Origin: Acidobacteriota bacterium
Lineage (GTDB): Bacteria > Acidobacteriota > Polarisedimenticolia > J045
Reading direction: 5' to 3'
NCBI GenBank assembly: GCA_030949985.1
Contig: JAUZRX010000049.1
Span: 1 to 64,000 of the forward strand
Length of the DNA: 64,000 nucleotides
Shown here: piece by piece, positions 48,154-51,481 of the stretch
Numbering within the stretch: the stretch's first letter is position 1
How the letters are laid out: each line of letters begins with the position of its first letter
The notes under the pieces: generated by a model
Database searches by the model: none
Told to the model about the DNA's origin: nothing
Seen by the model: only the letters and a program-made list of their open reading frames with translations
Translations under genes and position numbers: made by a program

Positions 48154-49440
48154 TCACAGCAGCCTGACCTCCCCCGCCTCCCCGGCGACGCAGCGGCCGA
48201 CCACCCGGGCGGGCGTCAGGGCGCTGCAAAGTCGTCGTGCCCGGTCTTCGCTGCAGGCGACCAGGAGCCCGCCGGAGGTCTGGGGATCGAGGGCCAGATC
48301 CACCCGCAGGGGGTCGGCCCCCTCGGCGATCACCAGGCTTTCGCCCAGGCTCTTCCGGTTTTTGCCGGCCCCTGCGGGCACGAAGCCCTGGGCGGCGGCT
48401 TCGAGAGCTCCATCGAGCAGGGGCAGATCCTTGAGATGCACTTCGATGGCCAGCGACGAGGCCAGGGCCAATTCGGCCCCATGGCCGGCCAGGCCGAATC
48501 CGGTGACATCGGTGACGGCAGTGGGCTCGGCCTGCCGGGCGGCCTCGGCGGCCCGCCGGTTGAGCGTGGCCATCGAGCGCACGGCCCGGGAGAGGTGACC
48601 CGGTTCCACCACCCCGCCCTTGGCGGCGGTGGTGATCACTCCCGTTCCCAAAGCCTTGGTCAGCACCAGCCAGTCGCCGGGCCGGGCCCCGCCATTGCGC
48701 CAGATCCGCCGTGGATCCACCTTGCCGGTCACCGCCAGGCCATAGAGCAGCTCGGCCCCCTCGACCGTATGGCCGCCGGCGAGCACCGCCCCCGCCTCGG
48801 CGAGAGCGTCGAGTCCTCCCCGGAGGATCTCCTTGAGCACCTGTCGCCCGGTGGTGGCCAGGGGAAAGGAAACCAGGTTCATCCCCGCCAGGGGTGTGCC
48901 CCCCATGGCGTAGACGTCCGACAGGGCATTGGCCGCGGCGATACGTCCGAAGGTGAAGGGGTCGTCCACCATCGGCGGAAAGAAATCCACCGTGTGGATC
49001 AGACCGAGATCGTCATCGATCCGTACCACTCCCGCATCGTCGGCGGTTTCGATGCCCACCAGCAGGTCTTCCGACTGCACCCTCGGCAGTCCGCAGAGAA
49101 TGGTGTCGAGCACTCCCTTGGCCAGTTTCGCGCCACAGCCCCCGTAGGCGCTGGCCCGGGTCAGACCGGCCTCGACCGGCGGCTCCGCGGCGGCGAGGCG
49201 GGTCGGCAGCCAGGCGCCGGCGGCGGCCCTGAACACCGCCTCGGGAGCCAGCCCCTCCTCGGCGAGCAGGGATTCGAGACGCAGAGCGTCACGGCGACCG
49301 ATCTCCAGCACCACGCCGCACTCGGAGCTGACGGCCCGGGGTGCGGGCAGCACATCCACGTCGAGCCCGGCCTGCCGGGCCAGGCGCTCGGCCTGCAGAA
49401 CCTTCTGAACCGTGCCGAAGACCACCAGGAGTTCCCTCAT
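48154..49440 (-). CDS. selD: Selenide, water dikinase SelD with N-terminal DUF3343 domain
   Basis: Residues 1-75 are a DUF3343 domain (LVVFGTVQKVLQAERLARQA and the conserved Cys41 in SSECG), a small putative selenium or sulfur carrier. Residues ~93-428 are SelD: GGCGAKL with catalytic Cys102 and Lys105, metal-binding ADDAGVVRIDDD, ANALSDVYAMGGTPLAGMNL, VTDVTGFGLAGHG and DPQTSGGLLVAC. SelD makes selenophosphate from selenide and ATP, the selenium donor for selenocysteine and 2-selenouridine. The active-site residue is Cys, not Sec. It overlaps the desulfurase-like gene by four bases and is the last gene of the selenium operon. Confidence 0.96.
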   Translation of the reverse strand: MRELLVVFGTVQKVLQAERLARQAGLDVDVLPAPRAVSSECGVVLEIGRRDALRLESLLAEEGLAPEAVFRAAAGAWLPTRLAAAEPPVEAGLTRASAYGGCGAKLAKGVLDTILCGLPRVQSEDLLVGIETADDAGVVRIDDDLGLIHTVDFFPPMVDDPFTFGRIAAANALSDVYAMGGTPLAGMNLVSFPLATTGRQVLKEILRGGLDALAEAGAVLAGGHTVEGAELLYGLAVTGKVDPRRIWRNGGARPGDWLVLTKALGTGVITTAAKGGVVEPGHLSRAVRSMATLNRRAAEAARQAEPTAVTDVTGFGLAGHGAELALASSLAIEVHLKDLPLLDGALEAAAQGFVPAGAGKNRKSLGESLVIAEGADPLRVDLALDPQTSGGLLVACSEDRARRLCSALTPARVVGRCVAGEAGEVRLL

Positions 49441-50591
49441 CGACCCTTCTCCCGCGTCCGGATCTCGAGAGCCTCGACCAGGCGCTCACAGTCGGCGGAG
49501 GTCGCCAGCGGACCCGGGGAGGCCCGCAGGGTGCCGGCCGGGAAGGTGCCCAGGCACCGATGAGCGGCCGGAGCGCAATGCAATCCCGCCCGCAACGCCA
49601 GCCCCTGTTCCCGATCGAGCCAGGCCGCCAACTCGCCGTTGTCCTCGCCATCGACGGTGAACGAGACGATTGCCACCGCGTCGTCTCCGGGCCGAAGACC
49701 GTGGAGCCGCACACCTGGAATCCGGGCCAGCCGGGTTCGCATGTCAGCGGCCAACTCGCGGGTGCGCCGACCGGGCTCGTCGCCCCCCTGCTCTTCGAAC
49801 CAGTCCAGGGCGGCCCCCAGCCCCGCAATGCCTGCCGTGTTGGGAGTTCCCGGCTCGAGGGCGTCGGGCCACAGATCAGGCATGTCTTCACTCTCCGAAC
49901 GGGAACCCGTCCCGCCACGCAGGAAGGGGCCGAGGGCGCGATCTTCGCCGAGCAGAAGCAGCCCCAGCCCCGGGGGACCGAGCAGCCCCTTGTGGGCCGA
50001 GGCCACGAACGCCGCGACCCCCGAGTCATCGAAGGTGAAAGGTCGGCTGCCGGCGGTCTGGGCCCCGTCCACCACCAGTGGCACGGGGGCGATGCGTCGC
50101 GCGATCTCCTCGACCGGCTGCACCAGGCCCGAAACGTTGGAGGCGTGGGCGATGACCACCAGGTCGGTGGGTCGGGCCCGGCAACCCTGCTGCACCGTCT
50201 CCGGGTCCAGGGCGCCGCCCTCTCCACCGGCCAGAACCTCGACATCGAGCGCCCGCCGACGTTCCAGGTGGCGCAGAGGACGCATGACCGCGTTGTGTTC
50301 CAGGGCGGAGACCAGCACGCGGCCGCCCCGGGGAAGCCAGGCGGTCAGCAACGCGTTGAGCCAGTAGGTCGCGCCCGGACCGAAGAAGAGTCGTTCGGTG
50401 GCGCAGCCGAAGAATCGGGCAGCGGCCGCGCGCACGGATTCGATCCGGCGCGCCGCGGCCAGGCTCAACCGGTGACCACCCCGCCCAGGGTTTCCCGCTT
50501 CCTGCTCGAGGAAACGGGCCATGGCCGCAGCGACCCCCGGGGCCTTGGGGAAAGCCGTGGCGGCGTGATCGAGGTAGGTCGGCCCGCTCAT
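49437..50591 (-). CDS. Class V aminotransferase: cysteine desulfurase/selenocysteine-lyase-like
   Basis: The 384-residue PLP enzyme begins with YLDHAATAFPKAPGV, has VSALEHNAVMRPLR (PLP-stacking His), VVDGAQTAGSRPF, the PLP lysine K201 in SAHKGLLGPPG, and a catalytic Cys339 in RAGLHCAPAAHR. It would take sulfur or selenium from cysteine or selenocysteine as a persulfide/perselenide. Its position between yedF and selD, with four-base overlaps on both sides, suggests its job is delivering selenium to SelD. Sequence alone does not prove selenium preference. Confidence 0.9.
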   Translation of the reverse strand: MSGPTYLDHAATAFPKAPGVAAAMARFLEQEAGNPGRGGHRLSLAAARRIESVRAAAARFFGCATERLFFGPGATYWLNALLTAWLPRGGRVLVSALEHNAVMRPLRHLERRRALDVEVLAGGEGGALDPETVQQGCRARPTDLVVIAHASNVSGLVQPVEEIARRIAPVPLVVDGAQTAGSRPFTFDDSGVAAFVASAHKGLLGPPGLGLLLLGEDRALGPFLRGGTGSRSESEDMPDLWPDALEPGTPNTAGIAGLGAALDWFEEQGGDEPGRRTRELAADMRTRLARIPGVRLHGLRPGDDAVAIVSFTVDGEDNGELAAWLDREQGLALRAGLHCAPAAHRCLGTFPAGTLRASPGPLATSADCERLVEALEIRTREKGR

Positions 50592-51187
50592 GGGCGCACC
50601 GTGGCTCCTGCTCCGGCCAGCACGGTGGCGATTTCCAGCATGTCGGTGACACGTCCCACCCGCAGTTTCTCGGCCAGGGAGTAAAAGTTGAGGCAGGTGC
50701 CGCAGGCGATCACCTCGGTTCCCGCGCGCTCGAGAGCGAGGATGTCCTCGAGCAGGGGTGAGCCCTCGCAGCAGAGCTTGACCCCCGCGTTGTAGAAGAG
50801 CGCGGTTTCGGGAGGCCGTTCGAGCTGAAGCTGGGTCTTGATCAACGACCGCAAGAGCAACGCCCCCAGCTCGGGATCGCCCTGACCCATGCGATCGGAA
50901 CCCACCTGCAGCACCAGGGGGCCGCCGGGGACGCAGGAAATCTCGGCCTCGGGCTCCGGTTCGGGCCGGGCGTCGTCGGCGACGCGGATCTCGAGCAGGA
51001 AGCCCCCTTCTTCCAGCGGCCGTTCCTCCACCTCGGCACCCCGGGAGGCGGCAAAGCGGGTGATGTTGGAGCGGGCCAGCTCGTCGGCGACTTTCAGCCG
51101 CAGCCGGCGCTCACCTTCATCGAGCCAGCGCCGGAGTTCCAACACGGGCCCCGGGCAGGCCAGTCCCCTCAGGTCCAGGTCCTTCAT
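50588..51187 (-). CDS. yedF: Selenium-metabolism sulfurtransferase-like protein YedF
   Basis: The 199-residue protein has a TusA/SirA-like N-terminal domain (DLDLRGLACPGPVLELRR, with the CPxP motif) and a DsrE-like C-terminal domain (TALFYNAGVKLCCEGSPLLE, VIACGTCLNFYSL). This two-domain form is the YedF family that co-occurs with selD. It probably relays selenium or sulfur on its cysteines. The ATG at 51187 has GGAG six bases upstream; an upstream in-frame GTG at 51199 would place that GGAG inside the gene. It overlaps the desulfurase-like gene by four bases. Confidence 0.93.
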   Translation of the reverse strand: MKDLDLRGLACPGPVLELRRWLDEGERRLRLKVADELARSNITRFAASRGAEVEERPLEEGGFLLEIRVADDARPEPEPEAEISCVPGGPLVLQVGSDRMGQGDPELGALLLRSLIKTQLQLERPPETALFYNAGVKLCCEGSPLLEDILALERAGTEVIACGTCLNFYSLAEKLRVGRVTDMLEIATVLAGAGATVRP

Positions 51188-51247
51188 GATTGGCTCCACT
51201 TCGTGGAAAGAGGCACACCGGGCGGTGCCGCTGGAGCGCGCCGGGGC

Positions 51248-51481
51248 TCAGCGCCGCCGGGCGGCCCGGGCGACGAGGTGCGGCAGAACCGGGGTCCAGG
51301 GCCAGCGCAGCGGCCCCCGACGCGCCACGAGGCGTGTTCCCAGCCAGACGCTGAATTCACCGGGCGCACCTTGAACCACCTCCACCTCGACACCGAGCTT
51401 TTCGCGCAGCAGTGCCGCCACACGGGCGGCGCGGGGCCGAAAGCCTCACTGCTCGCAGTAGCGAATCGTCACCGGTTGCAT
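51248..51481 (-). CDS. SelW-like (Rdx family) selenoprotein with in-frame UGA/selenocysteine
   Basis: Reading the TGA at 51448-51446 as selenocysteine (U) gives 77 residues starting MQPVTIRYCEQ-U-GFRPRA, then RVAALLREKLGVEVEVVQGA, PGEFSVWLGTRLVARRG and a basic tail. This is the thioredoxin-like SelW/SelT/SelH plan: a beta strand, the redox CxxU motif (C9, U12), a helix, and a Gly-Phe-x-V strand followed by a second strand with GTRLV. The first TGA would leave only 11 residues, whereas the frame after it is open for 65 codons. A hairpin just behind the UGA fits the bacterial SECIS model. The gene opens the selenium operon, 60 bases before yedF. SelW-type proteins are thought to act in redox defence. 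Confidence 0.88.
51414..51448 (-). promoter_or_regulatory. Bacterial SECIS element (selenocysteine insertion hairpin) with its UGA
   Basis: On the minus strand, after the UGA (51448-51446), a perfect 6-base stem GCCGCC (51430-51425)/GGCGGC (51419-51414) closes the loop CGTGT (51424-51420). The loop begins 22 bases after the UGA and has G as its second base. Published bacterial SECIS rules ask for a loop 16-37 bases downstream with G in one of its first two positions, so the fit is good. SelB would bind here. Confidence 0.75.

Follow-up and report, generated by a model that had tools for sequence, protein, structure and literature searches.

Does a UGA codon close to the start of a short reading frame in an Acidobacteriota contig terminate translation, or does it encode selenocysteine (Sec)? 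The frame lies on the minus strand of the window (the whole 64,000-nucleotide stretch of DNA that was analysed) and consists of an ATG start, a TGA at codon 12, 65 sense codons after it, and a terminal TGA at codon 78 (Table 1). Translated with UGA as U, it begins MQPVTIRYCEQUGFRPRAARVAALLREKLGVEVEVVQGAPGEFSVWLGTRLV. The initial annotation had described this TGA within a C9-E-Q-U12 motif followed by 65 further sense codons, and we found its frame, coordinates, and residues to be exact. It had also suggested a profile search against the Rdx family, for which we entered the UGA codon as Cys, standing for Sec. The protein matched Pfam Rdx (PF10262) with 40.8 bits against a cut-off of 22.6 (E = 2.7e-10), and the match (residues 4–52) spans the UGA. 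The NCBIfam model TIGR02174 (CXXU_selWTH) gave 27.7 bits against a cut-off of 34.2, a match below threshold. Among the 43 aligned relatives, all match the Rdx profile and 41 match TIGR02174 at E ≤ 0.01. By these profile scores, the window protein is a divergent Rdx member that lies outside the narrower TIGR02174 model. Together with the evidence below, we conclude that the frame is very probably a real gene for a selenoprotein belonging to the Rdx (SelW/SelT/SelH) family.

Table 1. Features of the SelW-like locus, in window coordinates
Feature	Position	Strand	Details
SelW/Rdx-like gene, very probably encoding a selenoprotein	51248..51481	-	77 codons + stop; CxxU motif C9-E-Q-U12
In-frame UGA, codon 12, presumed Sec codon	51446..51448	-	TGA in 57/57 loci; Cys in PDB relatives
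Putative bSECIS hairpin GCCGCC-CGUGU-GGCGGC	51414..51430	-	6 bp, 5-nt apical loop, G at loop position 2
yedF (TusA-like + DsrE-like)	50588..51199	-	CPGP and CGTC motifs; TIGR03527 160.1 bits (cut-off 110)
Class V aminotransferase, cysteine desulfurase/selenocysteine-lyase-like	49437..50591	-	PF00266 E = 2.4e-66
DUF3343 (Se_S_carrier)::SelD fusion	48154..49440	-	PF11823 at residues 4–71; TIGR00476 366.1 bits (cut-off 125)

The UGA is retained among relatives. In a sister genome of the same genus (G008; GenBank JALTMS010000606), the protein is 87% identical and keeps the UGA. Between the two genes, the 22 codons past the UGA carry six synonymous and no nonsynonymous changes, and the whole part downstream of the UGA carries 17 synonymous versus 9 nonsynonymous changed codons, which is a purifying pattern. 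Matches were present in 26 of 41 genomes in the class and in 86 of 396 genomes in a phylum sample, so that UGA-encoded SelW-like proteins are widespread in the phylum. Nearly every matched stretch in both sets contains one TGA; the two matched stretches without a TGA start downstream of the motif site. At each of the 57 loci inspected, which apparently belong to Acidobacteriota except for one from Desulfocapsa, the motif codon is TGA, and none encodes a Cys form. The residues upstream of the UGA and the CxxU motif are conserved across the phylum, and no homologue was found that begins only downstream of the UGA, all of them including CxxU. A scan of genome contigs for relatives matched the sister species (JALTMS01), one metagenome-assembled genome of Desulfocapsa, and nothing else, and searches of viral contigs and of plasmids for relatives of the gene found none.

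The predicted structure places the motif where a redox site of this family would be expected to lie. An AlphaFold model built with an alignment of 43 window and locus proteins (mean pLDDT 90.9, with a less confident C-terminus at about 85) comprises strands at residues 4–8, 33–37, 43–47, and 50–54, helices at 15–29 and 63–75, and the motif at 9–12. The CxxU thus sits between strand 1 and helix 1 of a predicted thioredoxin-like fold. The best solved matches of the model are the Rdx proteins 3dex, 2ojl, 2obk, and 2fa8 (TM about 0.8–0.87), followed by mouse SelW and then thioredoxins. The expectation that CxxC homologues would carry Cys at the UGA position was borne out by 3dex, 2fa8, and 2oka.

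Decoding of UGA as Sec would call for a hairpin in the message, and a putative one begins 15 nt past the UGA, with its loop 21 nt past it. The published bSECIS model specifies a loop of 3–9 nt, a stem of 4–16 bp, a G within the first two loop positions, a spacing of 16–37 nt, and an energy of at most -7.5 kcal/mol (PMC13188914). The window hairpin fits in loop size, G position, and spacing, and its core energy is -12.7 kcal/mol. Taken alone, the window copy shows no excess stability over random versions matched for codons (z -0.06), since four of its six pairs are dictated by the peptide AAxxAA. The support for the putative hairpin is comparative. Across 51 distinct relatives, pair 24–30, in which both members are third codon positions, is C-G in 37 and G-C in 14 and is always complementary. 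Pair 21–33, likewise formed by two third codon positions, is Watson–Crick in 45 of the 51, versus 34 expected by shuffling. A further count, restricted to 28 of the sequences, gave 98.2% paired cells and 17 double changes, versus 4.4 in shuffles, a statistic that leaves shared ancestry in; the changes at pairs 21–33 and 24–30 are synonymous for the most part and are seen within several subgroups. Sliding the pairing partner abolishes the covariation signal. An Rfam gathering scan of the window returned a tRNA-Arg as its only match.

The initial annotation had named absence of selA, selB, and tRNA-Sec from the complete genome as evidence that would count against its reading. The window itself carries selD, and the genome has selB (328 bits with both pieces) and a tRNA-Sec gene (selC) with anticodon UCA. 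We did not find selA in the draft assembly with TIGR00474 or Pfam SelA. We consider the missing selA more likely a gap than a loss for the following reasons. It is present in 10 of 12 genomes of the family, the same genus included. The sister-genome contig that carries selA also has genes for tRNA-His, tRNA-Pro, two tRNA-Arg, and a GTPase. The GTPase protein adjoining selA there was not found in the window assembly, and a search by DNA similarity to the sister tRNA-His gene (rather than a tRNA scan of every contig) found no tRNA-His, its best match being a tRNA-Thr. No cell can do without tRNA-His, and the block containing selA, tRNA-His, and the GTPase gene is therefore most likely missing through an assembly gap. 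Although scored 100% complete, the assembly is without selA, the GTPase gene, and a findable tRNA-His, so that failure to find a gene in this draft is no evidence that the organism has lost it.

The SelW-like gene heads a co-directional set in the order Rdx(Sec)–YedF–desulfurase/Sec-lyase-like–[DUF3343::SelD]. The initial annotation had placed it at the start of an operon with selD as its last gene. The gene order and the 4-nt overlaps joining yedF, the aminotransferase gene, and selD support that description, and these genes may be co-transcribed, although a gap of 48–60 nt (the likelier yedF start is an ATG at 51187) separates the leading gene from yedF. The sister genome has the identical gene order with a wider Rdx–yedF gap of about 220 nt. 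A promoter and terminator scan of the gene set found nothing. The best NCBIfam model for the aminotransferase, TIGR01977, scored 324.1 bits against a cut-off of 377, and the SclA model was also below its cut-off. The selD of the set is not the plain gene first described but a DUF3343–SelD fusion, with Cys at the catalytic position (YGGCGAK). Ten genomes of the family have a clear SelD. In five of them (the window genome and four others) it is a Cys-SelD that carries DUF3343 at its N-terminus; in the remaining five, SelD is unfused and its catalytic position is an in-frame TGA. SelD fusions named in PMC4561486 include NADH dehydrogenase-like–SelD and NifS–SelD; we found no description of a DUF3343–SelD fusion in the literature. 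Outside the genus, Rdx genes of the phylum mostly lie away from sel genes. In one distant phylum genome (G252, L112 7606-13090), a SelW-like UGA gene is close to selD-selB-selA.

We weighed these data against other readings of the UGA. Were it a true stop, the frame would be a decaying pseudogene or a short ORF starting only downstream, as the missing selA and the tendency of GC-rich DNA to yield long open frames by chance might suggest. That reading is extremely improbable given the conservation of the upstream residues and CxxU across the phylum, the synonymous-biased change past the UGA, the paired third-position covariation in the hairpin, and the UGA kept at every locus inspected. Alternatively, selA may truly be lost, leaving no working Sec pathway, and the UGA would be decoded by a different tRNA or passed through leaky read-through; two models failed to find selA in an assembly scored complete. 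We set true loss aside: tRNA-His and the GTPase gene, which lie on the selA contig of the sister genome, are equally unfound. The retention of selB, tRNA-Sec, and two UGA-containing SelW genes, and the presence of selA in most of the family and in the same genus, also make this reading highly improbable.

A third possibility accepts Sec insertion and concerns function: the protein might chiefly carry selenium or act as a translational sensor of it, with decoding of the codon-12 UGA coupled to yedF expression. The position of the gene at the head of a selenium gene set and the very early UGA would suit such a device. We think it quite unlikely, as most Rdx genes elsewhere in the phylum are not neighbours of sel genes, the long Rdx–yedF gap in the sister genome argues against tight coupling, and the protein sequence itself is conserved. 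On a bolder reading, which we regard as unlikely, the whole set would be one selenium-delivery line in which the CxxU protein takes a direct part in passing selenium to the fused SelD, or the operon reports its own selenium supply through the early UGA; the fused Cys-SelD system would then replace the free-standing Sec-containing SelD of related genomes.

We therefore favor a SelW-like redox selenoprotein, on the following model. SelB-GTP and Sec-tRNA(UCA) would bind the hairpin just past the UGA, and the ribosome would insert Sec at codon 12. The product would be a thioredoxin-like protein of 77 residues in which C9-x-x-U12 follows strand 1 and precedes helix 1, and the Sec/Cys pair would most likely form a selenenylsulfide/thiol redox centre, presumably acting with a redox partner. 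From its place heading a selenium-mobilisation gene set, the protein probably serves in redox or selenium housekeeping linked with the supply of selenophosphate, although for this specific cellular role we put the chances at about even. The association of SelW with selenium-mobilisation genes is a testable link. A standard gene caller would lose or shorten this UGA gene; in epsilonproteobacteria, SelW genes were wholly missed by annotation (PMC4607533). The locus adds a divergent SelW subfamily and a clean set of synonymous-site SECIS covariation. Less ordinary are the DUF3343–SelD fusion alternating with Sec-containing SelD in one bacterial family and the SelW-first gene set.

A tree of these proteins assigns the window copy to a GEF-type group of 12 rows (support 99/92), separate from a GGVF-type group; many of its forks are poorly determined by the short alignment, and a long branch leads to the window pair. 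The window genome has a second SelW-like UGA gene, with a CGVU motif (G000:C10:195262-195477; L043 7257-7478), in the GGVF-type group, about 16 kb from tRNA-Sec. Its SECIS core GGCCGCGAGTCTCGCGGCC is near-invariant across the bacterial family. In several family genomes (L019, L020, L022, L023, L028, and L029), a frame reading (V/T)ELHQH(V/L)DGSIP, which resembles adenosine deaminase, follows within about 300 nt of the CGVU gene; a short conserved frame that contains Cys may lie between the two.

By 2006 at the latest, SelW-like CxxU proteins were known as bacterial selenoproteins that have hardly any Cys counterparts, if any, in bacteria that use Sec (PMC1794560), and they are a listed bacterial selenoprotein family (PMC1794560, PMC13188914). 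The window gene is a new, divergent member of this established family. Its product shares the domain, size, predicted fold, CxxU site, and UGA with a bSECIS-type hairpin. Unlike the usual GGVFDV-type proteins, it belongs to a separate GEF(S/T)VW-type branch, on a long branch, and it differs from known bacterial SelW-like proteins in its CEQU motif, its basic Trp-containing C-terminus, and its position heading a selD gene set. The solved Cys relatives (3dex SAV_2001, 2fa8 Atu0228, 2oka, 2obk, and 2ojl) share the modelled fold at 20–30% identity, and their Cys aligns with the window UGA codon, so that CxxC stands there where the window protein has CxxU. YedF, Sec lyase, DUF3343, and SelD have been linked by genomic context (Lin et al. 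2015, PMC5322559), and the same four functions cluster in the window; compared with those neighbourhoods, the window set has DUF3343 joined to the SelD N-terminus and a SelW-like gene ahead of yedF.
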